The notes under the pieces are model-generated. The model made no database searches. It was not told the DNA's origin and saw nothing but the letters and a program-made list of their open reading frames with translations. Both the position numbers and the translations under genes were made by a program. Positions 1 through 10,124 of a DNA stretch of 44,678 bases are shown piece after piece (within the stretch, counting starts at the first letter, position 1; each line of letters opens with the position of its first letter). Source of the DNA: Sphaerotilus sp. (lineage in GTDB: Bacteria > Pseudomonadota > Gammaproteobacteria > Burkholderiales > Burkholderiaceae_C); the NCBI GenBank assembly GCA_013299055.1, contig JAAFKB010000024.1, positions 1 through 44,678 of the forward strand, in the 5' to 3' direction.

Positions 1-48
1 GTCAAGTGATGCCATGGAGCGGCTTGTTCATTACAATCCGCTCCCCGT

Positions 49-124
49 GCCGGCTTAGCTCAGTTGGTAGAGCAACGGTCTTGTAAACCGTAGGTCATCC
101 GTTCGATTCGGATAGTCGGCACCA
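49..124 (+). tRNA. tRNA-Thr (anticodon UGU)
   Basis: A 76-nt cloverleaf with an encoded CCA end. The 7-bp acceptor stem pairs 49-55 with 114-120 with one G-U pair. The anticodon loop 80-86 reads CTTGTAA with anticodon TGT at 82-84, which reads the Thr codon ACA. The T-arm carries GTTCGATTC. The 3' half from base 101 is duplicated about 10 kb downstream, so this gene is the integration target of the adjacent element. The functional 3' end now in place was supplied by the element. A -10-like TACAAT lies at 32-37. Confidence 0.96.
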
Positions 125-126
125 CA
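101..126 (+). other. attL: integration site in the tRNA-Thr 3' end
   Basis: The sequence GTTCGATTCGGATAGTCG (101-118) followed by GCACCACA recurs at 10,100-10,124, where a single G is missing. The two copies match over 25 of 26 positions, and the similarity stops sharply on both sides (C versus A before, T versus G after). The copy lies in the T-arm, acceptor stem and CCA of tRNA-Thr, the usual target of P4-type tyrosine integrases. Confidence 0.9.
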
Positions 127-157
127 TCAGGCCACGAGAGGCCACGACAGACAAGAA

Positions 158-191
158 AAGCCCTTGAGAATCAACGCTCAGGGGCTTTTTT
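158..191 (+). terminator. Rho-independent terminator after tRNA-Thr
   Basis: An 11-bp stem (158-168 with 177-187, one G-U pair), an 8-nt loop and a run of six or seven T. It lies inside the element just past attL and would stop transcripts of the tRNA from entering the integrase region. Confidence 0.85.
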
Positions 192-223
192 CATGCCCGA
201 ATGACCACGGGTGACCACGGTTG

Positions 224-299
224 AACCTGCCCCCTCGTGGGGGCAACAATGGGGGCAGGTCCAGAATCTGCCCCCACCAACCGGAAAACCTGCCCCCAC
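224..299. repeat. Left arm-type integrase sites overlapping the int start
   Basis: Five copies of a CTGCCCCC-type motif. Rightward copies lie at 224-234 (AACCTGCCCCC), 267-277 and 287-299 (AACCTGCCCCCAC); reverse copies lie at 239-247 and 251-261. The last copy ends directly at the likely integrase start codon at 300. Two inverse copies occur at the other end of the element (10,025-10,049). Repeated short motifs at both ends of an integrating element are typical of integrase arm-binding sites. Their overlap with the int promoter region suggests autoregulation. Tandem TGACCACGG (202-210, 212-220) and GGCCACGA (130-137, 140-147) repeats lie between these and attL. Confidence 0.7.
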
Positions 300-1586
300 A
301 TGGCTACAACCAACACCCTGAGCGATGCCGCCATCCGCAAGGCGAAGCCCGGCGAGAAGCCCCGAAAGCTGTCGGACGGTGGAGGGCTTTACCTGGAACT
401 GCAGCCGAACGGGGGCAAGTGGTGGCGCCTGAAGTACCGTTTCGAGGGCAAGGAGAAGCGCATCGGGCTGGGCACATACCCCGAGGTGTCGCTGGCCGAT
501 GCCCGCAAGCGTCGAGACGAGGCCCGCGCACTGGTGGCGGCTGGCGCCGACCCGAGCGAGGCCCGCAAGGCTGGCAAGGCCGAACACCAGCGCCAGCAGC
601 ACGCCGAAGCCCTGGCCGCTGCAGGCGAGCCGCTGCCGGGCACTTTCGAGGCTGTGGCGCGAGAGTTCCACGCCGGCAAGGCTGAGGGCTGGTCAGCGTC
701 CTACGCCGGCAAGTGGTTGACCTACTGCACCCGCGACCTGTTCCCCAGGCTGGGGCACCTGCTGCTGTCCGACATCACCGCGCCGAAGCTGCTGGAGGTG
801 CTGCGCCTGGTCGAAGCGCGAGGCACCCGCGTGTCAGCGCACGACCTGCGGCAGTACGCCGGGCAGGTGTTCCGCTACGGCATCCAGACCGGGCATTGCG
901 AGCGCAACCCCGCCGCCGACCTGGCCGGCGCCCTGAAGCCTGCCCAGGTGCGCCACATGGCCGCGGTGCTGGAGCCGGTGCAGGTGGGCGCACTGCTGCG
1001 CAACATCGGCGAGTACGCCGGGCATCCCGTGACCCGTGCCGCGCTGGCGCTGTCGGCGCTGCTGTTCCAGCGTCCGGGCAACGTGCGGGCGATGGAGTGG
1101 AGCGAGATCGACCCCGACGCCGCGCTGTGGACGATCCCCGCCGCGAAGATGAAGCGCACGGTTCACGGCAAGGTCAACGGCCGCCCGCACCTGGTGCCGC
1201 TGGCCGCCCAGGCGCTGCAGGTGCTGGAAGAGCTGCGACCGCTGACGGGCCGCGGCCGGTTCGTGTTCCCGTCCCTCATGGGTGGCGGCGAGTGCATGAG
1301 CGAGAACACGATCAGGGCCGCGCTGCGCCGCATGGGGTACACGAACGAAGAGATGACCGCGCATGGCTTCCGAGCGATGGCGCGCACGCTGATCGTGGAG
1401 CGCCTGCCGGGGATCGGTCCTGACGTGATTGAGGCGCAGCTGGCGCACGGCAAGGCCGGGCCGCTGGGCATGGCCTATGACCGCGCGGAGTTCATGGACC
1501 AGCGCCGCCAGATGATGCAGACATGGGCGGACTACCTGGACCGCCTGCGCAATGGGGCGCAGGTGATCCCGTTCAAGGCCGCGTGA
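300..1586 (+). CDS. Tyrosine-type integrase (P4-like)
   Basis: A 428-residue site-specific recombinase that would integrate and excise the element at tRNA-Thr. Residues about 1-95 match the DUF4102 arm-DNA-binding domain (LSDAAIRKAKPGEKPRKLSDGGGL). A central core-binding domain is followed by the catalytic domain. The catalytic set is visible: R258 (QRPGNVRAMEW), H355-x2-R358 (AHGFRAM), H383 (LAHG) and the nucleophile Y393 (AYDRAEF), followed by the family-typical MMQTWADYLD. I chose the ATG at 300 because family members start close to this LSD motif. An in-frame GTG at 237 would add 21 residues that run through the arm repeats. The gene lies directly inside attL, as expected. Confidence 0.96.
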   Translation: MATTNTLSDAAIRKAKPGEKPRKLSDGGGLYLELQPNGGKWWRLKYRFEGKEKRIGLGTYPEVSLADARKRRDEARALVAAGADPSEARKAGKAEHQRQQHAEALAAAGEPLPGTFEAVAREFHAGKAEGWSASYAGKWLTYCTRDLFPRLGHLLLSDITAPKLLEVLRLVEARGTRVSAHDLRQYAGQVFRYGIQTGHCERNPAADLAGALKPAQVRHMAAVLEPVQVGALLRNIGEYAGHPVTRAALALSALLFQRPGNVRAMEWSEIDPDAALWTIPAAKMKRTVHGKVNGRPHLVPLAAQALQVLEELRPLTGRGRFVFPSLMGGGECMSENTIRAALRRMGYTNEEMTAHGFRAMARTLIVERLPGIGPDVIEAQLAHGKAGPLGMAYDRAEFMDQRRQMMQTWADYLDRLRNGAQVIPFKAA

Positions 1587-1597
1587 AGGGGGAAGAG

Positions 1598-1834
1598 ATG
1601 CAAGACCGTGAACCTGTCGAGATCGAGGCGTTTGGCCGGCCTGTGCGCCTGCTGAGGTGCTTTCAGGAGTGGGACGACATGGCGCCGACCGATGACCCGC
1701 AGGTGCGCCACTGCCACCAGTGCGCCACCAACGTGCGCCGCGTGGCCGGTGCCGAGGACTTCGAGGCGCCAGAACGCTGCGTGAGCCTGTGCCTGGAAGA
1801 GGTGGTGATTTCCGGGGAACCCCTGTACGGGTAG
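1598..1834 (+). CDS. Small Cys-rich protein, unknown function
   Basis: A 78-residue protein that starts 11 nt after the integrase stop, behind a good ribosome binding site (GGGGGAAGAG). It contains RHCHQCATNV near residue 40 and two further cysteines (ERCVSLCLEE) near residue 65, which together could form a small zinc site. I do not recognise the family. The tight spacing to int suggests co-transcription, so a role in integration or excision control is possible but unproven. Confidence 0.6.
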   Translation: MQDREPVEIEAFGRPVRLLRCFQEWDDMAPTDDPQVRHCHQCATNVRRVAGAEDFEAPERCVSLCLEEVVISGEPLYG

Positions 1835-1908
1835 GCGCCCCACCTGGTCGGCGAGGCACATTGCTTTTTTCGGGATCGTCCGGGAAACGGGCGTTCTAGC
1901 GGACGACT

Positions 1909-1927
1909 GGCCGGCACTCTGCCGGCC
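1909..1927 (+). promoter_or_regulatory. Perfect hairpin abutting the alpA-like start codon
   Basis: GGCCGGCACTCTGCCGGCC forms an 8-bp perfect stem with a 3-nt loop, and its last base touches the ATG at 1928. No Shine-Dalgarno sequence is visible there. It could be an operator or an RNA hairpin that controls start-codon access. Confidence 0.55.
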
Positions 1928-2212
1928 ATGAACACCGCAACCCCCCAAATCACCCCGATTGCCCTGCTTCGCAAGCCTGCCCCGGCTCGCATGACGGCCA
2001 CCCGTGTTTCGCCTGAACTCGCCGACCTTCAGCGCCTGTCCGTCCGGGACGTGGCCGCCCTGATCGGCCGCGGCGAGCAGTCGATACGCGACATGGTGAA
2101 GGCCGGCAAGTTCCCGCCCGCCGACCACCGAGACGGCCCGAAGTGCGTTCGCTGGTCTGCCGGCACGGTGCGCCGCTGGCTCGAATCGACCAGCACCACC
2201 GCCGCGAAGTAA
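1928..2212 (+). CDS. AlpA/excisionase-like helix-turn-helix regulator
   Basis: A 94-residue protein with a MerR/AlpA-type DNA-binding core at about residues 35-85: LSVRDVAALIGRGEQSIRDMVKAGKFPP, then VRWSAGTVRRWLE. This is the layout of AlpA-family proteins, which in P4-like elements and cryptic prophages act as transcriptional activators of int or as excision factors. The first 20 or so residues are outside the core. A second ATG at 1991 would give a 73-residue protein of more usual AlpA length. Neither start has a clear ribosome binding site, and the hairpin at 1909-1927 touches the first one. It probably switches the element between integrated and excised states. Confidence 0.85.
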   Translation: MNTATPQITPIALLRKPAPARMTATRVSPELADLQRLSVRDVAALIGRGEQSIRDMVKAGKFPPADHRDGPKCVRWSAGTVRRWLESTSTTAAK

Positions 2213-2222
2213 GGGGCAGGCC

Positions 2223-2606
2223 ATGCAGACCGACCCCAGAAACGACGAAGGGACGAGCGTTCGCACCGCTCGCCCCCCCATGCAGACCGGTGCAGATGCT
2301 ACGGCAGGCGACCAGCGCCAGCAACTGCCCGCCATCCTCACACCTCGCGCCCGGCGCATCCTGCTGGCGCTGCTGGTGAGCGACCGCACCCGCGAAGAGA
2401 TCGACCGCGCTGCAGGTGCATCGAACGGGCCGGATGAGGTGCTGCGCATCCGCCAGCGGTTCGGCCTGGCCATCCCATGCACCCGCAAGGGATCGAAGGA
2501 CCGGGACGGCCAAAAGGTCGAGATCGGCGTTTACCGCCTGACCGAGGAAGACCGCACGAAAGCCCGCCGCGTGCTGGGGTCGAGTGCGATTCAGGGAGTG
2601 CAGTGA
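2223..2606 (+). CDS. Winged-helix-like small phage protein
   Basis: A 127-residue protein just after the AlpA-like gene, in the same direction. The segment from about residue 42 to 115 (ARRILLALLVSDRTREEIDR, then a loop and a VYRLTEEDR strand) has the shape of a winged helix-turn-helix, as in small phage-encoded DNA-binding proteins. The first 40 residues look disordered, so a later start at ATG 2280 is possible. Its stop overlaps an ATG at 2606 in TGATG style. The function is inferred only from fold-like pattern and context. Confidence 0.6.
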   Translation: MQTDPRNDEGTSVRTARPPMQTGADATAGDQRQQLPAILTPRARRILLALLVSDRTREEIDRAAGASNGPDEVLRIRQRFGLAIPCTRKGSKDRDGQKVEIGVYRLTEEDRTKARRVLGSSAIQGVQ

Positions 2607-2647
2607 TGGACACGTATTGCCACGACATGCCCCGTAGTGCAAACTGT

Positions 2648-2806
2648 GTGCAGGTGCTTGAAAACACCTCACACAACGCGGATAGCCGCCCCGACAGCGC
2701 GGCTTTGTCACGCCCGGATTCCGTCAAGGTTTCGGGGGTGCAGGTGGGCCATTGCGCGAGCGTGGCCGCTCAACGTTGTGTGAGTTTTCAACACCTGCAC
2801 CCCCAC
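2648..2806. repeat. Long imperfect inverted repeat, candidate cis-acting site
   Basis: The 30 bases at 2648-2677 (starting GTGCAGGTG, ending CACACAAC) match the reverse complement of 2775-2800, with one 3-nt and one 1-nt gap in the right copy. A second inverted pair, GGGGGTGCAGGTG at 2734-2746 and its complement at 2792-2804, shares the right arm. The stretch 2607-2866 otherwise lacks a convincing gene; an open frame from ATG 2606 runs through it into the next gene but has unnatural composition. It may be an operator region, a second replication site like the P4 crr, or a structured RNA. Confidence 0.55.
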
Positions 2807-2866
2807 CCGCTGCCGCTTGAAAACGGTGCGAGTGGTCCTCAGAAGCTCACAACGGAGCACGAGACC

Positions 2867-3025
2867 ATGAAAACGACTTCCAAGGCTGGAAGCATCGGCG
2901 CCTATGCGCCCGCCTACCTGCGCCGCTTGGCGCTGTCCCTGGCCAGCAAGGCGACCCGCCGCGAGGCACTGCGCGCCAAGGCTTTCGAGCTGATCGCCGC
3001 CGACCGGATCGGGGGTGCGCGATGA
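2867..3025 (+). CDS. Small basic protein, unknown function
   Basis: A 52-residue protein from an ATG with CGGAG upstream at suitable spacing. It is Ala/Arg-rich and predicted helical from about residue 15 onward (YLRRLALSLASKATRREALRAKAFELI). Its stop overlaps the start of the BRO-N gene (ATGA), which indicates translational coupling. An upstream in-frame ATG at 2606 would make a 139-residue protein, but the added part runs through the inverted repeats and looks non-coding. I do not recognise the family. Confidence 0.5.
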   Translation: MKTTSKAGSIGAYAPAYLRRLALSLASKATRREALRAKAFELIAADRIGGAR

Positions 3026-3582
3026 GCCGCCCCCTGACGTTCCAGACGGTCGAGTTCAAGGTGATCGACCACCACGGCCAGACCTGGCTGACGATGCGCG
3101 ACATCACGGCCGCGCTCTACAGCGGAGCCGAAGGGGGTGACACTTCTGTCACCCCAGATGCTGAACGCGCAGTGCGCCGCGTCTTCGCCCGCCACGCCCA
3201 CGAGTTCACCGCCGACATGACGGCGCTGGTGAAGATGCGTGACCCAGAACACAGAAAAGGTGTTCCGGGTCAGACCCGTACTGTCCGGATCTTCTCCCTG
3301 CGTGGCGCCTACCTGCTGGGGATGCTGGCCCGCACGCCCAAGGCCGAAGCGTTCCGCCGCTGGGTGCTGGATGTGCTGGAAGGCGTCACCCGCGCCCCTG
3401 CCGCCCTGCACGCCCGTCTGATCGAGGCCGAACAGGAGGAAGCGCAGTCGTTCGCCCGTGCCCGTGTTCACTCGCACGGCATGAACCAGCGCCGCAAGGA
3501 GAAGCCGCGGCTGTTGAAGCACATCGAGGCGCTGCGCGAGCTGGTGCAACTGGCGCTCCCGCTGGAAGGCGGTGCAGCATGA
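3022..3582 (+). CDS. BRO-N domain protein (phage antirepressor-like)
   Basis: A 186-residue protein. Residues about 8-125 match the BRO-N/antirepressor N-terminal pattern: VEFKVIDHHGQTWLTMRDIT at the start, and IFSLRGAYLLGMLARTPKAEAFRRWVLDVLE at the end. The C-terminal 60 residues are basic and helical and may bind DNA. Proteins of this type in phages and satellites act as antirepressors or DNA-binding regulators. The start overlaps the preceding stop by 4 nt, and the end overlaps the next start. Which repressor it opposes cannot be seen here; no classical CI-type repressor is encoded in the element. Confidence 0.75.
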   Translation: MSRPLTFQTVEFKVIDHHGQTWLTMRDITAALYSGAEGGDTSVTPDAERAVRRVFARHAHEFTADMTALVKMRDPEHRKGVPGQTRTVRIFSLRGAYLLGMLARTPKAEAFRRWVLDVLEGVTRAPAALHARLIEAEQEEAQSFARARVHSHGMNQRRKEKPRLLKHIEALRELVQLALPLEGGAA

Positions 3583-4079
3583 CCGCCGGCACCAACACGC
3601 CCCGCAGCCGCCGCGAGGCCGAAGCATTGGCCCGCCTGCTGCAACTGCTGGCCGATGGTGTCGCCTTCACAGAAGCCGTCTGGATGGCCAGCGAACGCGG
3701 CATGGACCTGGACACCGCCCGCCTGGTTGAGCTGCACGACACGCACACCCGCACCGCTGCGCCCGCGGCCACCCCGACCGCCGGCGCCAGCCACACGCCC
3801 GGCCCGTGGCGCCATGACCGCCGCGACATCCTCACCCCGTCCGGGCACTGTCTCGCTGAGGTGAACAGCGGCGTGTGCGCCACGCTGGCCGAAGCGGATG
3901 TGACCGGCCGCCTGATCGCCTCGGCACCTGAACTGCTGCGCGTGGCCCGGCTGGCGCTGGAAGAGATGGAATGGCTTGGCCAACTCTCTTCCGTGCCTCT
4001 GCGCGCCGACCTGCGCCGCGTCATCGCCGCCGCCACCAGCGCCAGCGACACCACCACCACCGAACACCCCGGAGCCTGA
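3579..4079 (+). CDS. Phage-type protein with HTPGPW motif, unknown function
   Basis: A 166-residue protein coupled to the BRO-N gene by an ATGA overlap. The middle (about residues 70-120) carries the pattern SHTPGPW, then GHCLAEV, then DVTGRLIASAPELL, which recurs in many uncharacterised proteins of phages and prophages. The N-terminal 45 residues are helical, followed by an Ala/Thr/Pro linker, and the tail is Thr-rich. No enzymatic motif is visible and no function is known to me. Confidence 0.7.
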   Translation: MTAGTNTPRSRREAEALARLLQLLADGVAFTEAVWMASERGMDLDTARLVELHDTHTRTAAPAATPTAGASHTPGPWRHDRRDILTPSGHCLAEVNSGVCATLAEADVTGRLIASAPELLRVARLALEEMEWLGQLSSVPLRADLRRVIAAATSASDTTTTEHPGA

Positions 4080-4080
4080 C

Positions 4081-4485
4081 ATGGTCACCAAGAACACCAC
4101 CGGGAAGCCCCCGGTTCAAGCCGCTGCATTGCCCAATGCCGACCTTCTGCGCTCGATTGCCCACCTTGCGGGCGAACTGGACACCCTTCACGGCCGCATG
4201 AAGCACGACGTTTCCCCGCTGCTGCGTGCGATGGAGAACCTGGCCAACTGCCACCGCGTGCTGTCCGGTATCGAGCAAGCCGCCAACCGTGACAAGGGGT
4301 TCGGCGAGCGGATCGCCGAAGCGGTCCAAGACTGGCACGACCCGACGTGTGAAAACCCGCTTGAGCTGGTGGGCGACCTGGCACGGGTTGCCGTGAACGT
4401 CTTCACCGACCGCCAGACCGAGGCCGAAGCACTGGTGAGCCGTGCCTATGCACTGGCGAACCAGACAGGAGGGGCCGCAGCATGA
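4081..4485 (+). CDS. Hypothetical element protein
   Basis: A 134-residue, mostly helical protein that starts 2 nt after the preceding stop (ATG 4081, CGGAG upstream) and ends in an ATGA overlap with the next gene. The stretch from ADLLRSIAHLAGELDTLHGRM to about residue 65 resembles a coiled segment. I do not recognise the family. Its position within the tightly packed early operon suggests a regulatory or replication accessory role. Confidence 0.6.
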   Translation: MVTKNTTGKPPVQAAALPNADLLRSIAHLAGELDTLHGRMKHDVSPLLRAMENLANCHRVLSGIEQAANRDKGFGERIAEAVQDWHDPTCENPLELVGDLARVAVNVFTDRQTEAEALVSRAYALANQTGGAAA

Positions 4486-4841
4486 CCGCACCCACCACCA
4501 AGCCGGCGCACCTGTTCAAGCCCTTCTCGTGGTTCTCGTGGACTGACCGCACACCCACGCCCGGAATCATCCCGGTGCCGTCGCATCGCGTGCTATCCAC
4601 TGCATCCACCATCCGCGACCTGACCAACGGTATCGAGCTGGTGCTTGAGATGATCGAGCGCGACATGATCGACGGCCACGAAGAGGAAGACGCGCCGCCC
4701 CCACTGCTGAGCAACGGCCACCGGGACACGTTGATGCGCATGGCAATCACCGCCGCCAAGATCGCCGCACGCGAGGCCGAAACGCTGACCGACTGGGTTA
4801 TCGAGACCGGCGAGCGACAGGCCAAAGGGGGCACGCGATGA
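4482..4841 (+). CDS. Hypothetical element protein
   Basis: A 119-residue protein translationally coupled on both sides (ATGA at 4482 and at the primase start 4838). It has a hydrophobic-aromatic N-terminus (HLFKPFSWFSW) without a clear membrane span, then an acidic helical middle (ELVLEMIERDMIDGHEEED) and an Ala-rich helix. I do not recognise the family. Being directly coupled to the primase gene, it may assist replication, but this is inference. Confidence 0.6.
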   Translation: MTAPTTKPAHLFKPFSWFSWTDRTPTPGIIPVPSHRVLSTASTIRDLTNGIELVLEMIERDMIDGHEEEDAPPPLLSNGHRDTLMRMAITAAKIAAREAETLTDWVIETGERQAKGGTR

Positions 4842-5824
4842 ACGGCCTTCATGACTTCCTGGCCGCCGTGCGCGCCGAGCTGGGGCACGCCCCCGACGCC
4901 GACCGCGTGCAGCCCGGCGAGTTCGTCCGCTTCTCCACCAACGGCAAGCCGGGCAACCGGGACGGCTGGCTGAAGTGGTTCGCCGATGGGCACGGGGGCT
5001 GCTACGGCTGCAAGCGCCAGCAGTTCAGCGCATCGTGGCAGACCGGACGGCACGGCTACCTGAGTCCGGCTGATCGGCTGCAGCGTGTCCGCGAGCGTGC
5101 CGAGGCATCCGCCCGCAGTGCTGAGAAGCAGCGTCAGCAGTGGGCGGAGAACGCCCGGTGCAATGCCCGGATGTGGGACGCCTGCCGGGTTCTTGGTCCC
5201 GACGATGTGGCGTGCCGCTATCTGCGCCGCCGACTGCGTGCGCTGCCCGATGTGCTGCCCGAGGCGCTGCGCTTTCACCCGAGCCTGAGCTACTGGCACG
5301 ACGGCCAGCGCATCGGCACCTTCCCTGCGCTGGTGGCCGCCATCACCAGCCCGTCAGGTGAGCTGCTGGCGCTGCACCGCACCTACCTGGACCCGTCAGG
5401 CAACAAGGCCACCTTGCCCGATGGCGCACCCACCAAGAAGCTGTCTGCAGCATCCGGGCCGATCATGGGCGGCTTCATCCGACTTGCCACGCCGACCGAT
5501 GCCGGGCTGATCGGCGTTGCTGAGGGCGTAGAAACGGCTATGGCCGCATCGCTGGCCGGACGGCTGCCCGTGGTGGCCGCCTACTCTGCGGGGGCGCTGG
5601 CCGCGTGGCAGTGGCCGCCAGAGGCCCGACACATCGCCATCTGTGGCGACAACGACCCGGCCGGACTGGAAGCCGTCGACAGCCTGGCTGAACGTGCCCT
5701 GTCTGCTGGCCTGCGCGTGCATCGCGCCATCCCTTCGCAACCTGGAATGGACTGGTGCGACGTGTGGGCGAGCCGTGACGAATGCCCCGACGCCCTGACC
5801 ACGGAGGGCACCGCCCATGCTTGA
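4838..5824 (+). CDS. Toprim-domain primase-like protein
   Basis: A 328-residue protein of the phage/plasmid Toprim family. The Toprim catalytic motifs are AEGVETAMAA (Glu229) and ICGDNDPAG (Asp271, Asp273). The part before the Toprim fold has the family-typical order: LRRRL, FHP, ALVAAI.SPSGELLALHRTYLD and KLSAASG. Residues 50-60 (GHGGCYGCKR) hold two cysteines, a reduced version of the zinc region of DnaG-like primases. It would synthesise primers for element replication. It is coupled to the downstream DUF927 gene by an 8-nt overlap, and the two together correspond in role to the single alpha primase-helicase of P4. Confidence 0.9.
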   Translation: MNGLHDFLAAVRAELGHAPDADRVQPGEFVRFSTNGKPGNRDGWLKWFADGHGGCYGCKRQQFSASWQTGRHGYLSPADRLQRVRERAEASARSAEKQRQQWAENARCNARMWDACRVLGPDDVACRYLRRRLRALPDVLPEALRFHPSLSYWHDGQRIGTFPALVAAITSPSGELLALHRTYLDPSGNKATLPDGAPTKKLSAASGPIMGGFIRLATPTDAGLIGVAEGVETAMAASLAGRLPVVAAYSAGALAAWQWPPEARHIAICGDNDPAGLEAVDSLAERALSAGLRVHRAIPSQPGMDWCDVWASRDECPDALTTEGTAHA

Positions 5825-7679
5825 GAACCACGACAACGCCGACGACCTGAACCGACTTTCCGGCATCGCTGCAGGTGACGGCGTGGAGGTACTGGACGCA
5901 CCCGCGCCGACAACCAGCGCCAGCAGCAAGACCCGCCGCAAGCCTGACGCCCGCCCGCCGCAGTCCCGCCACGATGGCGGATCTTTCGAGCTGATCGAGC
6001 ACGCGAAGGCCGGCGAGTCGGCGGGCGTGTACTTCACCGGCTTCGATCAGGAGGGCAACGCCAAGGCGCCGCTGTGGGTGTGCGCGCCGCTGCACATCAT
6101 CGCCAAGACGCGCGGCACCAAGTCGGCGGATTGGGGCCGCCTGCTGGAGTGGCGCGACCCCGACGGCCGCCCGCACCGCTGGGCAGTCCCCGCTGAGCTG
6201 CTGGCCGGCGACGGCCTGGAAGTGCGCCGCGAGCTGATGAGGCTAGGGCTTGAGGTAGCCCCGTCGAAGCGTGCCCGCGACCTGCTGAGCACGTACATGC
6301 AGGTCTGGCCCGTGACCGAGCGAGCGCGCTGCGTGGAGCGGCTGGGCTGGCATGGTGCCGTCTACGTGCTGCCCGATGAGGCCATCGGAGCCGAAGCCGA
6401 AGCCGTGGTGTTCCAGTCGTCCGCCGCCGTAGAGCCTGCCTACGCCCAGGCCGGCACCGCTGCGCACTGGCGCGAGGGCGTGGCCGCGCTGTCGGCGGGC
6501 AACAGTCGAATGGTGTTCGCCATCGCCTGCGCCTTCGCGCCCGCCCTGGCTGCACTGGTCGGCGAAGACTCGGGAGGCTTCCACCTGCGAGGCAAGAGCA
6601 GTTCCGGCAAGTCCACCGCGCTGGCGCTGGCCGCTTCGGTCTGGGGCAACCCGGCGAGCTTTACCCGGCTGTGGCGCACGACCACGAACGGCTTGGAAGG
6701 ACTGGCCGCCGTTCACAGTGACTGCGTGCTGATCCTGGACGAGCTGAGCCAGATGGACCCGAGGGAGGCAGGGGACGCCGCTTACCTGCTGGCGAACGGG
6801 CAAGGCAAGACCCGGGCAAGCCGGGCCGGCATGGCGCGACAGCCTGCCCGCTGGCGGCTGCTGTTCCTGTCGGCCGGGGAGGAATCCCTGTCGGCCATGA
6901 TGGGCCGGGCCGGCAAGCGGTCCAACGCCGGGCAGGAGGTGCGCCTGGCGGACATCGAGGCCGATGCAGGGGCCGGGCTGGGTGCATTCGAGACGCTGCA
7001 CGGCCACCCGACCGGCGCCGCGTTGTCGCTGGCGCTGAAGGATGCCGCCGCGCAACACCATGGAGCCGTCGGCGTCGATTGGCTGCGCCGCGTGGTGGCG
7101 GATCGCGTCAACCTGGCTGAACAGGCTGGTGAGCTGGTGCGCGAGTTCGTCGCCGAACACACCCGGCCGGACTCCCCCGGTCAGGTGCTGCGCGTGGCGC
7201 GTCGATTCGGGCTGGTGGCTGCTGCTGGCGAGCTGTCCGGCGAGCTGACGGGCTGGAAGGGGGGCGAGTCCTTCGAGGCGGTCGGCAAGTGCTTCACGGC
7301 CTGGCTGGAGGGCTTCGGGGGCGACAGCAGCCGTGAAGACCGTTCCCTTCTCGCTCAGGTGCGTGCGTTCTTCGAGATGCACGGCGCGAGCCGCTTCGAG
7401 GACATGGCCGCCACGGTAGAGCAGCGCATCCCGAACCGGGCCGGCTTCTGGCGCGACGGCGAGGACGACGCACGCCAGTTCCTGGTGCTGCCCGAGGTGT
7501 TCAAGCGCGAGGTCTGCCAAGGCTTCGATGCCAAGGCCGCCGCGCAGGTGCTGGTGAAGGCTGGGGTCATCCTGGCCGGCGAGGACGGCAAGACCGCCCG
7601 CAAGGTTCGCTTGCCCGGCATCGGCGCGACCGCCCGCGTCTACGTCTTCACCGGCAACCTGTGGGAGTCCGGCGAGTGA
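5817..7679 (+). CDS. DUF927-domain ATPase (putative replicative helicase)
   Basis: A 620-residue P-loop protein. The DUF927 region spans roughly residues 60-400. Walker A is GKSSSGKST (259-267), and Walker B is VLILDELS with Asp308-Glu309. The motifs LGWHGAVYVLPDEAIG and FQSSAAV upstream are typical of DUF927 proteins that follow Toprim primases in satellites and integrative elements. The C-terminal 150 residues contain a winged-helix-like segment. Family members are thought to act as replicative helicases, loading at the origin. Here the iteron cluster begins within 25 bp of the stop codon, which supports an initiator/helicase role. An alternative is a packaging-type ATPase, but context argues against it. 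Confidence 0.9.
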   Translation: MLENHDNADDLNRLSGIAAGDGVEVLDAPAPTTSASSKTRRKPDARPPQSRHDGGSFELIEHAKAGESAGVYFTGFDQEGNAKAPLWVCAPLHIIAKTRGTKSADWGRLLEWRDPDGRPHRWAVPAELLAGDGLEVRRELMRLGLEVAPSKRARDLLSTYMQVWPVTERARCVERLGWHGAVYVLPDEAIGAEAEAVVFQSSAAVEPAYAQAGTAAHWREGVAALSAGNSRMVFAIACAFAPALAALVGEDSGGFHLRGKSSSGKSTALALAASVWGNPASFTRLWRTTTNGLEGLAAVHSDCVLILDELSQMDPREAGDAAYLLANGQGKTRASRAGMARQPARWRLLFLSAGEESLSAMMGRAGKRSNAGQEVRLADIEADAGAGLGAFETLHGHPTGAALSLALKDAAAQHHGAVGVDWLRRVVADRVNLAEQAGELVREFVAEHTRPDSPGQVLRVARRFGLVAAAGELSGELTGWKGGESFEAVGKCFTAWLEGFGGDSSREDRSLLAQVRAFFEMHGASRFEDMAATVEQRIPNRAGFWRDGEDDARQFLVLPEVFKREVCQGFDAKAAAQVLVKAGVILAGEDGKTARKVRLPGIGATARVYVFTGNLWESGE

Positions 7680-8035
7680 AAACGCAATCTGATCGTTTTC
7701 CAGGTGGAACAGGTGGAACAGGTGTCACAGACGCCCATTCCCCCAGGGAGAAGGCCGCCGCGTGCCTGTTCCACCTGCCATCGCGCCCAGTGGAACAGGG
7801 TGGAACACGCCGGGCACCCCCTGCGGTTCTTCCCTGCTTGGATCGCCTGTTCCACCGTGTTCCACCTGCCATCGCGCCCGGTGGAACACGCGGAATCGAG
7901 CCACGCCAGAGGGAGAACCGCCCCGTGTTCCCCCTGTTCCACCAGTTCCACCGCCAAAACAAGCAAACCGAGATGCAAGCCGGGCCGCGCCTGCCCTGGC
8001 TTCACCTCGAACAAACCGAACACGAGGAACACCCC
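7680..8035. repeat. Iteron cluster: candidate origin of replication
   Basis: This gene-free 356-bp stretch holds eight perfect copies of TGTTCCACC: forward at 7767, 7848, 7858 and 7935; reverse at 7703, 7712, 7799 and 7880. Near copies lie at 7721, 7789, 7926 and 7944. Two of the copies sit in a direct repeat (7767-7797 and 7858-7888) that differs at one base; each unit is a hairpin with TGTTCCACC and GTGGAACA arms around a 13-nt loop. It lies directly between the DUF927 ATPase and the SSB. As I recall, phage P4 replication uses TGTTCACC iterons bound by its alpha protein, which is strikingly close to this 9-mer. Confidence 0.75.
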
Positions 8036-8470
8036 ATGATCGAAGCACTCATCACCGGCAAGCTGCACCAGCGAGCCGAGGAACGCACCAGCAAAGGCGG
8101 GAAGCCGTTCGTCAAGGCGCAGATGCGCACCGCTGCCGGGGAGGCCGAAAGCCTGTTCGTCAACGTCGTGGCGTTCTCGGAATCGGCCTGCGCTGCCCTG
8201 CTGGCGCTGGACGCCGGCGACTCGCTGGCCGTGGCCGGCACGCTCAAGCCGAGCGCCTGGATTGACCGCGACGGCAACGCCCGCCCGAGCCTGGACATCG
8301 TTGCCGCTCAGGTGCTGACGCTGTACGGGCTGAAGCGCCGCCGTGCCGCCGTTGCAGGTGTTGCGGGTGCCGTTGCAGGTGTTGCGGGTGCCGTTGCAGG
8401 TGAGGCCACCCAGCGCCAGCACGACCCCGAGGACTTCGGGCCGCAGGACTGGCCGGAGGACCGCCCGTGA
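8036..8470 (+). CDS. ssb: Single-stranded DNA-binding (OB-fold) protein
   Basis: A 144-residue protein whose first 105 residues fit a short SSB-like OB fold: LITGKLHQRAEERTSKGGKPFVKAQMRT at the start, FVNVVAF in the middle and DSLAVAGTLKPSAWIDRDGNARPSLDIVAAQVLTLY at the end. An Ala/Gly/Val linker encoded by a 21-bp tandem repeat follows, then an acidic tail (DPEDFGPQDWPED). It would coat single strands during element replication. I chose the ATG at 8036; an open frame continues upstream through the iterons but is not coding in style. The end is coupled to the next gene by a GTGA overlap. Confidence 0.85.
   Translation: MIEALITGKLHQRAEERTSKGGKPFVKAQMRTAAGEAESLFVNVVAFSESACAALLALDAGDSLAVAGTLKPSAWIDRDGNARPSLDIVAAQVLTLYGLKRRRAAVAGVAGAVAGVAGAVAGEATQRQHDPEDFGPQDWPEDRP
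8351..8402 (+). repeat. 21-bp tandem repeat inside the ssb linker
   Basis: The unit GTTGCAGGTGTTGCGGGTGCC occurs at 8351-8371 and 8372-8392, followed by 10 bases of a third copy. It encodes VAGVAGA repeats between the OB fold and the acidic tail. Being in frame, it can vary in number without breaking the gene. Confidence 0.85.
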
Positions 8471-8808
8471 CCGACCACACCGACCCGCACCACATCCGCC
8501 ACGGTAAAGACGGCACCCGAGCCGTTCCCGTGACGCCAGAAGCCGCCCAGGCGCACGCCCGCATCGTCGAAGCACTGCGCGACCCGTTCGCCTTCGCTGT
8601 GGCGCTGCTGGGTGCCTGTGGCGCTCGGAGCCAGTACGGCAACCTGCAAAAACCTGCAGTGCAGGCGCCGCCGACCACCGACACCAGCCCCGCACCGCGC
8701 AAGGCGTACCAGCGCAAGCCCCGCACGGCTGAAGAGATCCTGAAGCCACGCGACGCGCTGGGGGGGTTCACGTTCCCGCTGTCCAATCGGTCGAAGCGCG
8801 ACGAATGA
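8467..8808 (+). CDS. Hypothetical element protein
   Basis: A 113-residue protein from a GTG start coupled to the ssb stop (GTGA). It has a His-rich start (DHTDPHHIRHGKDG), an Ala-rich helical middle and a basic, Pro-rich tail (PRKAYQRKPRTAEEILKPRDAL). I do not recognise the family. Codon use matches its neighbours. The C-terminus overlaps the next gene by 4 nt. Confidence 0.55.
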   Translation: MTDHTDPHHIRHGKDGTRAVPVTPEAAQAHARIVEALRDPFAFAVALLGACGARSQYGNLQKPAVQAPPTTDTSPAPRKAYQRKPRTAEEILKPRDALGGFTFPLSNRSKRDE

Positions 8809-9053
8809 CCAGCCCGAAGAATCCCGCCCTGGTGCGCGAGCTGCAGCGCGAGATGCTGGCGGACCTGCTGGACGATGCCGCCCGGCTGCTGCGCTGGGGT
8901 CCAGACGCCGACGCGCAGGCACTGGCGGAGCAACTGGCGAAGCTGGAAGGCCCGCACCGGGCCGCCTGGCTGAAGATGGCCCCGCTGATGTGCGGGCGAC
9001 CTGTCCGGGCTGTGGCACGCCGGACGATGGCGACATTGACCCGGAAGAGCTGA
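8805..9053 (+). CDS. Small helical protein, unknown function
   Basis: An 82-residue protein starting in an ATGA overlap. Residues 5-55 are predicted helical (LVRELQREMLADLLDDAARLLRW, then DAQALAEQLAKLEGPHRAAWLKMAPLM). The last 20 residues are Arg-rich and lie where the neighbouring frame from GTG 8990 also has coding-like composition, so the true end may involve a frameshift. I do not recognise it. Confidence 0.5.
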   Translation: MTSPKNPALVRELQREMLADLLDDAARLLRWGPDADAQALAEQLAKLEGPHRAAWLKMAPLMCGRPVRAVARRTMATLTRKS

Positions 9054-9087
9054 AGCGCAGAGGGGGGCATGCCTGTTACGGAATGTC

Positions 9088-9480
9088 ATGGTCTGCGAGC
9101 CATGCAGGCCGGTTCCGCTTCAGAAAACTTCAGTTCTGCGAGGTGCTGCCAGTCGGCGAACTACTCGGGAAAACTCACGTTCGGAAATGGCCGGGAACCT
9201 TTCAAAACCTATGGTCCAGAAACCCGGCCAACTGCTGCAGGACGGCAAGAACACGGCAAGGACGAGGCCGCCACCGAGCGGGCTTTGTCGTTCCTGGCTG
9301 GTGCTGGTCGAGTGCCTGGACTACTGCAAAACACTGCATTCGCAGGCGCTCAGGAATGCTCAGGTTCTGGAAGTGGCCGGGCTGGTGTCGTGCCGCGTGC
9401 GCGACCGCGAGCGCAAGACCGCGCAGATTGCCCGCGTGTTGGTGCTGGGTGCGTTCATGGCCGGGGAGGTGAAGCCATGA
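9088..9480 (+). CDS. Hypothetical element protein, uncertain N-terminus
   Basis: A 130-residue open frame. Its second half reads like a real helical protein (LVLVECLDYCKTLHSQALRNAQVLEVAGLV, then RDRERKTAQIARVLVLGAFMAGEV), and its stop overlaps the next ATG (ATGA at 9477). The first half has mixed codon use and lower GC. A neighbouring frame (from GTG 8990) opens with a zinc-ribbon-like segment, CPGCGTPDDGDIDPEEL then HAC, and a third frame around 9240-9290 (HGKDEAATERALSFL) also looks coding. A frameshifted or fused gene is therefore possible. Function unknown. Confidence 0.4.
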   Translation: MVCEPCRPVPLQKTSVLRGAASRRTTRENSRSEMAGNLSKPMVQKPGQLLQDGKNTARTRPPPSGLCRSWLVLVECLDYCKTLHSQALRNAQVLEVAGLVSCRVRDRERKTAQIARVLVLGAFMAGEVKP

Positions 9481-9722
9481 ACGCACCTTCCGAAACCTTC
9501 CGCCTCAACGTCGAAGCGCCCACCACTCGCACCTAACGCACTTACCTGTTAGATGGACCCGACCGACTCGCCAAACTGCGCACCCGCGCCGCCCTGGCCG
9601 GCTGGTCGATCATCCCGACCGCAGCCGGCTACCTCGTGTCCCGCTGGGGCATGTCCAAGCCTTTGCCGGACCTGCCCGCCGTCGAGGCGTTCATCAGCCG
9701 CGCCACGGGGGTGAAGCTGTGA
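9477..9722 (+). pseudogene. Small gene interrupted by an in-frame TAA
   Basis: From ATG 9477 (coupled to the preceding stop) the frame reads MNAPSETFRLNVEAPTTRT, then TAA at 9534-9536. It continues in the same frame as convincing protein: LLDGPDRLAKLRTRAALAG, IIPTAAGYLVSRWGMSKPLPD and VEAFISRATGVKL, with a stop at 9720-9722. The whole would be 81 codons. Either a nonsense mutation has broken the gene or translation restarts at a later codon such as ATG 9651. The end overlaps the next frame by GTGA. Confidence 0.6.
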
Positions 9723-9994
9723 GCCGTCGCGACTACACCGCCGACGATGCCCGCGACGCGCTGCAGCACTGCGACCCCGGCACCGACCGCCGCCAGTGGG
9801 TGCGCATCCTGGCCAGCGCCGCACCCTTCGAGGTGCTGGATGTGCCCGGCCACGGTTCAGCCTGGTAGAGCGCCACGACCCCGGCCAGCGCCAGCGCACC
9901 CAGCCGGCCCCACCCCTTCGAGCTGGTAGCCGCGCCCTTCGACCATCTGGAGGTGCTGCGCGAGATGGTCCGGGCTGGGGCTGTTTCCGGCTGA
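9719..9994 (+). pseudogene. PriCT-2-like fragment with an in-frame TAG
   Basis: From GTG 9719 the frame reads a 49-residue peptide including DDARDALQHCDPGTDRRQWVRI, which matches the start of the PriCT-2 domain found next to phage and plasmid primases. It stops at TAG 9866-9868. The same frame then continues with coding-like sequence (HPFELVAAPFDHLEVLREMV, then RAGAVSG) to TGA 9992-9994. The piece is far shorter than a normal PriCT-2 primase, so it looks like a decayed remnant at the element's right end. Confidence 0.5.
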
Positions 9995-10024
9995 TCGGGC
10001 AGAATCGAGGGGCTGCGGCGAAGC

Positions 10025-10049
10025 GTGGGGGCAGGTTTGGGGGCAGGTT
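10025..10049. repeat. Right arm-type integrase sites
   Basis: Two direct copies of GTGGGGGCAGGTT-type sequence, at 10,025-10,037 and 10,038-10,049. They are the reverse complement of the AACCTGCCCCCAC motif next to the integrase. They lie 50-75 bp inside attR, as expected of arm sites. Confidence 0.7.
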
Positions 10050-10099
10050 CCAACAAGCGCCAGCGTGAATCCGATGCAAATCAAGCACTTACGCCCAGA

Positions 10100-10124
10100 G
10101 TTCGATTCGGATAGTCGCACCACA
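10100..10124 (+). other. attR: partial tRNA-Thr copy
   Basis: A copy of the last part of tRNA-Thr including CCA (10,120-10,122), lacking one G of the acceptor stem relative to attL. The copy is not part of a tRNA and is free to drift. It ends 8 bp before the DUF454 start codon. Confidence 0.9.

Follow-up and report, generated by a model that had tools for sequence, protein, structure and literature searches.

Origins built from iterons have already been described for SaPIs and other PICIs: they lie 3′ of rep, hold two iteron sets and accompany Pri–Rep allele groups (PMC7581432, PMC6092414). In SaPIs, the C-terminal domain of the Rep helicase recognises iterons that directly follow rep, and Cch of SCCmec is a DUF927-bearing relative of SaPIbov1 Rep (PMC7581432). 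Gram-negative PICIs of the EcCICFT073 type begin with int and AlpA, followed by a Bro zone and a replication region that contains primase, SSB and ori, and have two sets of iterons on the 3′ side of the initiator gene (PMC6092414, PMC10111431); a Gram-negative PICI rep–ori segment drives plasmid maintenance (PMC6092414). A helicase function in mobile elements had earlier been predicted for the DUF927 family (PMC5862659). The MGIVchHai6 island can be excised, mobilised and integrated without a DUF927 gene that it carries, replication being a separate question (PMC7449626). The Pseudomonas satellite phiAH14b is reported to be packaged in phiAH14a capsids, and the main text of that report makes no mention of its iterons (PMC4936722). 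In the open-licence literature, which leaves aside most subscription papers, we found no account of iterons for proteobacterial DUF927 elements, nor of a shared spacing grammar or a correspondence between wing residues and iteron bases.

Here we describe an iteron cluster in a 44,678-nucleotide stretch of Sphaerotilus sp. DNA (the window). The cluster very probably serves an integrative, PICI-like element of 10 kb as its replication origin, with two halves that would load helicases and be read by the wing of the DUF927 protein. PICI and SaPI origins are known in few models; the spacing grammar and the amino acid–base correspondence reported below cover many elements. The results also point to DUF927, by its Pfam name still a 'domain of unknown function', as the origin-reading helicase of Gram-negative satellites.

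The element and its mirrored iteron array

The att core within the tRNA-Thr gene is repeated 10 kb further on, which bounds an element of ∼ 10.0 kb (about 101–10117, Table 1). All recognised genes point rightward, in the order integrase, AlpA/Cox-like protein, Bro-N protein, Toprim primase subunit, DUF927, iterons and SSB. Gram-negative PICIs share this rightward order (int, AlpA, Bro, primase/rep, SSB/ori) and the two iteron sets, but have an AT-rich region between the sets that the window lacks. The six TGGGGGCA sites beside the two att cores are probably integrase arm sites; clusters of this motif also occur towards the ends of certain other DUF927 loci (L180, L186, L190). The C-terminal part of the SSB (window about 8350–8403) holds a tandem repeat, VAGVAGAVAGVAGAVAG, followed by an acidic end.

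Table 1. Features of the integrated element, in window coordinates.
Feature	Position	Strand	Basis or detail
tRNA-Thr (TGT), integration target	49..124	+	ARAGORN; Rfam tRNA
attL core GTTCGATTCGGATAGTCG	101..118	+	exact 18-nt repeat, second copy 10100-10117
tyrosine integrase, from listed GTG start	237..1586	+	Pfam
four TGGGGGCA sites, probable integrase arm sites	238..298		putative function
AlpA/Cox-like HTH protein	1928..2212	+	Pfam HTH_17, PHROG 66
Bro-N / Ant-like protein	3022..3582	+	Pfam Bro-N, PHROG 5060
primase subunit (DUF7146 + Toprim_3)	4838..5824	+	profile matches
DUF927 initiator helicase	5817..7679	+	Pfam 3e-96; predicted structure; covariation
DUF927 wing residues	K596 codon 7602-7604, R607 codon 7635-7637	+	covariation
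left half-origin, six iterons	7703..7807	both	TGT ends 7711-, 7720-, 7729- (2 mismatches), 7767+, 7797- (1 mismatch), 7807-
right half-origin, six iterons	7848..7952	both	TGT ends 7848+, 7858+, 7888-, 7926+ (1 mismatch), 7935+, 7944+ (1 mismatch)
single-strand DNA-binding protein (SSB)	8036..8470	+	Pfam SSB 8e-9
two TGGGGGCA sites, probable integrase arm sites	10026..10045	+	putative function
attR core	10100..10117	+	18-nt repeat of attL core

Many PICIs lack a capsid or terminase gene. Among the window proteins searched, no capsid, terminase (terS) or partition gene was recognised and no helper is known; Psu gave no match either, in a search that covered part of the late frames. That the element is a satellite is therefore something we infer, plausibly, from its gene order and its relatives (phiAH14b and locus L214, see below). 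A search for a P4-type immunity RNA with Rfam returned the tRNA and a sub-threshold H19_2 match (7925–7989), which we read as chance.

The 9-mer TGTTCCACC occurs between 7703 and 7952 in eight exact and three one-mismatch copies on both strands, and a two-mismatch copy, TGTGACACC, at 7721–7729 brings the sites to 8 + 4 = 12 within 250 bp. The entire gap between the DUF927 and SSB genes is 7680–8035. An initial sequence-only reading had reported eight perfect and four near-perfect copies in both orientations between these genes, and was right on both counts. Over the whole window, TGTTCCACC with at most one mismatch is found 21 times against 9.07 expected, a number reached in 0 of 100 shuffles. 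With eight copies it is the most clustered 9-mer among the 250-bp stretches tested in the window, and it never exceeded one copy per region in 2000 simulated regions. Within the element's own genome (4.09 Mb, 239 contigs, 83.8% complete), the tandem 18-mer is confined to this array at up to one mismatch. A second, crr-like array was looked for in the element as any other group of at least three sites within 120 bp (up to two mismatches), and none was found.

The twelve iterons form an exact mirror image in position and strand, centred at 7827.5, which the sequence-only reading had overlooked; two long inverted repeats share this centre. Anchored on the T of TGT, the sites are spaced by 9, 9, 38, 30 and 10 in the left half, 41 between the halves, and 10, 30, 38, 9 and 9 in the right half. 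Each half consists of three iterons, one inverted iteron and two iterons. The repeated hairpin unit with a one-base difference, also noticed in the sequence-only reading, is a 31-nt repeat (7767–7797 and 7858–7888, 97%) and corresponds to the +/− iteron pair within each half. Left and right halves agree at 49/54 iteron positions but only 25/71 spacer positions; hence it is the arrangement that is mirrored, and the array is no recent inverted copy of the whole stretch.

No AT-rich box was found in the window's spacers. The DNA between the two iteron sets, which are 41 bp apart, has an AT content of 30–40% against a window mean of 33%, and the long spacer deviates from the locus mean by +0.09 and −0.06 in the two bins concerned. 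This feature and the four imperfect iterons would suit a relic, the decayed origin of a stranded element. Such decay is quite unlikely, since the DUF927 frame is open and retains its Walker motifs, K596 and R607 fit the iteron (see below), both att cores are kept, and the integrase, primase and SSB frames are open.

The DUF927 helicase and its relatives

The window DUF927 protein matches Pfam DUF927 at 3e-96 and has the Walker motifs GKSSSGKSTAL and LILDEL in frame. An AlphaFold model built from 48 sequences has a mean pLDDT of 87 and a pTM of 0.79; it replaced an earlier, poor model from 16 sequences (pLDDT 52.9). Its best structural match is SCCmec Cch (5dgk; Z 29.1, 481 residues, rmsd 5.2), followed by SaPIbov1 Rep (8tch; Z 26.4, 462 residues, rmsd 6.4). 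In this comparison, backed by Foldseek, MCM proteins rank next and far lower, at Z 13.4 and less. The match to Cch and SaPIbov1 Rep covers residues 46–619, including the C-terminal winged helix, with 16–18% identity in the structural alignments, and their chains were the only matches in a PDB sequence search. Judged by this model, the protein is structurally related over its full length to the MCM-like initiators Cch and SaPIbov1 Rep, with which it shares the DUF927 class. The wing hairpin strands are modelled at 595–598 and 605–611, and thus contain residues 596 and 607.

As in the SaPIs, the array lies directly downstream of the helicase gene: the DUF927 stop codon ends at 7679 and the first iteron starts at 7703. 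The comparison with SaPIs covers the fold and the position of the array. The primase partner differs, being a Toprim (DnaG-like) protein in the window and an AEP in SaPIbov1 and SaPI5 (PMC7581432).

The sequence-only reading had likened the array to the P4 origin, served here by a split primase and ATPase. P4 iterons are of the same general kind: TGTTCACC matches TGT-NN-ACC, and the P4 ori has six exact copies arranged as three, one inverted and two. The P4 cis sites flank the alpha operon on both sides, as in the split DUF927 relatives described below. An E. coli P4-like element (L214, 5936–10300) carries two Psu-family genes and a Zn ribbon–Toprim–DUF927 primase, with DUF927 in place of the D5 helicase and TGTTCCACC iterons downstream. 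Because this element pairs Psu-family genes with DUF927 and TGTTCCACC, DUF927 can take over from the helicase of alpha in an element of P4-like build. Even so, it is unlikely that the window array is a genuine P4-type origin that shares ancestry with ori1/crr and works with a homologue of alpha, as the helicase families differ. P4 alpha matches Zn ribbon, Toprim, D5_N, DUF5906 and Pox_D5 in Pfam and has no DUF927 match; homology of the window helicase to alpha was rejected after Pfam gave nothing and a profile comparison with the DUF927 alignment gave 0.6 percent probability. The ori1 layout (− 10 − 11 − 15 + 50 − 10 −) has other spacings, the upstream array is oriented differently relative to alpha, and crr contains the series + 9 + 50 − 18 − 7 + twice, imperfect sites included, whereas the window has a single joined site. 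The resemblance in iterons stands, and kinship with alpha finds no support: the window array is analogous to P4 ori and goes with a different helicase family. Nor is the split a defining trait. Toprim and DUF927 are separate genes here, but in L175 (63% identical) both parts form a single 946-aa frame.

Another parallel in gene order is phiAH14b (L218), where int, AlpA, a Rha-like gene, Toprim and DUF927 are followed by mirrored iterons; the iteron is a different one (TGTTCCCC) and its DUF927 protein is 34% identical to the window's.

In most of the loci L245–L265 (e.g. L246, L248, L256, L260) the DUF927 match begins near residue 87, and the core open frame has only about 450–500 aa, the N-terminal part and the ATPase core lying in different frames at a similar place. 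Going by these frames, the break is perhaps a conserved gene split.

Half-origin geometry among DUF927 loci

DUF927 loci were gathered independently of the iteron. The 113 loci comprise the window, 15 loci from GTDB contigs, 11 plasmid or phage records (of 86 matching), 39 loci from genomes of the window's family (that search gave a DUF927 match in 38/299 genomes, our own included) and 47 viral contigs. Scored de novo, 69/113 loci had a clustered 7-mer that reached at least 10 and surpassed all 20 shuffles of the same locus; a few of them hold other kinds of repeat (L189, L195, L198, L203). Control regions (20 from the same genomes, three from the window) reached 10 in 2/23 cases, with no shuffle condition applied. 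In L189, strong CCCGTCACC tandem repeats of another kind are found roughly 7 kb before the stop codon of DUF927.

A curated iteron was assigned in 73/113 loci, with registers set by eye before residues were read (as in the later held-out set). Many match TGT-NNN-(A/C)CC or TGTYCNC(A/G); they include TGTTCCACC, TGTACCACC, TGTAGCACC, TGTAACACC, TGTTACACC, TGTCACACC, TGTAACCC, TGTCCCCA/G, TGTCCGCA and TGTCCTCA. The sequence-only reading had made recurrence of the 9-mer downstream of DUF927 genes in related elements a check on its idea. Exact TGTTCCACC recurs at L214, L260, L261, L262 and held-out L293, whose DUF927 proteins are 38–44% identical to the window's; the nearest relatives use other iterons, namely GGAACACC or its complement in L174 (64%) and TGTCCCC in L175 (63%) and L302 (63%). 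L174 was counted as TGTTCC, our first reading. Its geometry favours the other strand, GGAACACC, and this re-reading, which removes one mismatch to the rule given below, was made after the residues had been seen. Among the 11 closest GTDB loci (L001–L010 and L015; 54–64% identical, mostly Legionella) only L001 has a significant cluster of the class, upstream. L002–L007, L009, L010 and L015 have no significant iteron cluster of the TGT class; the L008 sequence stops where the gene ends, and L010 and L015 have partial frames. An L. fallonii plasmid (L139) has a strong cluster, while pHS87b and vB_Pae_U10 (L141, L143) have only a weak one, 0.66–0.74 kb downstream.

No relative turned up when viral contigs were scanned with just the window protein. 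An 18-mer scan of the same source gave at least 120 stretches (L019–L138), mostly with no DUF927 match; among the matches listed, seven had one beside the array. Such iteron-selected loci were excluded from all counts, except that L260, L261 and L262 are the same or near-identical contigs found again by protein.

The cluster lies downstream of DUF927 in 65 of the 73 curated loci, upstream in 29 and on both sides in 23. Where both are present the upstream sites are mainly − and the downstream sites mainly + (23/23), and the same opposite facing was seen in 6/6 held-out loci with both clusters. The common half-origin reads + 9 + 30 − 48 + 9 + 9 + downstream (L248, L259, L260, L265) and, as its mirror, − 9 − 9 − 47/48 + 30 − 9 − upstream (L246, L248, L259). 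Held-out L289 and L304 have it in its two orientations. In L238, L239 and L244 both halves are joined, as in the window, where the long spacer is 38 in place of 47–48. A second spacing type, + 9 + 21 + 22 − 43..45 + 9 +, is shared by loci that have six different iterons between them (L176, L178, L180, L185, L191, L195, L197, L235, L242), and the remaining loci have other spacings. On average over 64 loci, which may include the iteron-selected L027 and L092, the long spacer is AT-rich (+0.12 and +0.16 above the locus mean in two bins). Similar arrays are found up to 3 kb downstream or 2–8 kb upstream of DUF927 in other loci. Split loci point to half-origins that can sit kilobases apart, as ori1 and crr of P4 do around the alpha operon. 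The idea that excision joins two half-origins was dropped; the split loci have no mapped element ends.

These distances also bear on a purely regulatory reading, in which the repeats are no origin and serve DUF927 or AlpA as an operator or silencer for regulating the SSB operon. The array does sit between two co-directional genes, and initiators often self-regulate. With arrays that far from DUF927 in other loci, and with the helicase itself covarying with the sites, we consider this very unlikely; a second, regulatory role may exist beside the role as origin.

We lean towards a pair–inverted–triple half-origin grammar that is common to the DUF927 initiators of proteobacterial satellites and plasmids and outlasts changes of the iteron, a judgement made jointly with the wing code below. 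The halves would be joined, as in the window, or split around the rep operon, and P4 would use the same plan with an unrelated helicase. The sequence-only reading saw in the array the replicon of a satellite family: the DUF927 family is indeed wide, and both the gene order and the relatives make 'satellite' plausible. Since many relatives keep the layout while iteron and helicase change together, a recognition rule can be tested.

Covariation of wing residues and iteron bases

For the first set, iterons were fixed before any residue was inspected. The C-terminal alignment had 62 rows after near copies and four rows with poor register or alignment (L212, L027, L179, L215) were dropped. Residue 607 was the top column for iteron base 6 (excess mutual information 0.52 bits; median column 0.00) and residue 596 for base 5 (0.51 bits; median 0.05). 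The columns ranking highest for bases 4, 7 and 8 fell partly outside the wing. Base 8 is associated about as strongly with non-wing columns (P454 0.56 bits, V534 0.54 bits; median 0.11), so relatedness adds background.

Over 70 tips, residue 607 is R, K or W in 56/59 cases when base 6 is C and in 1/11 when it is another base; residue 596 is K or R in 42/53 cases when base 5 is C and in 0/17 otherwise. A tree built on the ATPase core requires no fewer than seven changes of base 6 and 11 of base 5. When base and residue were simulated as evolving independently along this tree, the observed association was reached in 0/3000 runs for either pair (phi 0.80 for base 6/607 and 0.69 for base 5/596; largest simulated 0.74 and 0.52), values that are uncorrected because both pairs were picked from 190 columns and five bases. 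The window, with K596 and R607 against C5 and C6, matches the rule.

The rule was then applied blind to 47 new loci, from genomes of the class (16/369 with a match) and of the phylum (31/398). Iteron calls were fixed for 32 before residues were read; the other 15/47, with no or an unclear cluster, were left out. Base 6 and residue 607 agreed with prediction in 32/32 (31 C; one T with F607; Fisher 0.03), a result that rests mostly on invariance, as base 6 varied in only one of the 32 calls. Base 5 and residue 596 agreed in 25/32 (Fisher 0.004): K/R was absent from 17/18 loci with a non-C call and present in 8/14 with a C call, L301, where 596 falls in an alignment gap, being scored as a miss. 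The set contains near copies in the wing (L289/L296, L309/L310, L313/L315/L317), and L288 is not independent since its iteron and cluster equal those of L236 from the first set. The misses show some order: in the combined table, inspected post hoc, AC at bases 4–5 goes with Q596 in 5/5 rows and NG with N596 in 4/5.

We favour, somewhat and together with the shared grammar, a wing code of the following form. C at base 6 would go with R, K or W at 607, and other bases mostly with S, T, V, N or F; bases 4–5 would be read by 596, CC or TC mostly through K/R, AC through Q, NA through residues other than K/R and NG mostly through N. If true, this code predicts compatibility and origin sequence from protein sequence. 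A grammar that can be found mechanically, combined with a residue–base correspondence, makes the origins, incompatibility groups and helicase specificity of many little-studied integrative elements predictable and open to test.

Plasmid iteron arrays can also be partition, incompatibility or packaging sites, and the repeats could serve another protein of the element in this way. Given that the covariation is with the DUF927 wing, and that the window proteins searched yielded no recognisable partition or terminase gene, we regard this as highly improbable. The origin reading, already proposed from sequence alone, is by comparison supported by the sites, their geometry, the predicted fold and the covariation, and the cluster is a likely origin. 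After excision, subunits of the DUF927 protein, an MCM-like AAA+ helicase, would bind the six iterons on each side via their C-terminal winged-helix wings, with R607 recognising the G opposite C6 of TGTTCCACC and K596 the one opposite C5. Two oppositely facing, presumably hexameric DUF927 assemblies would form, melt the DNA and load helicases for two forks, so that replication would be bidirectional. The Toprim protein would prime, and SSB would coat and protect the single strands.

Two loci carry two iterons each: L194 has TGTTCCCG upstream and TGTCCCCG downstream of one DUF927 gene, and L297 has TGTTGCC and TGTTCCC clusters near one DUF927 gene. These are perhaps two specificities or two nested elements.
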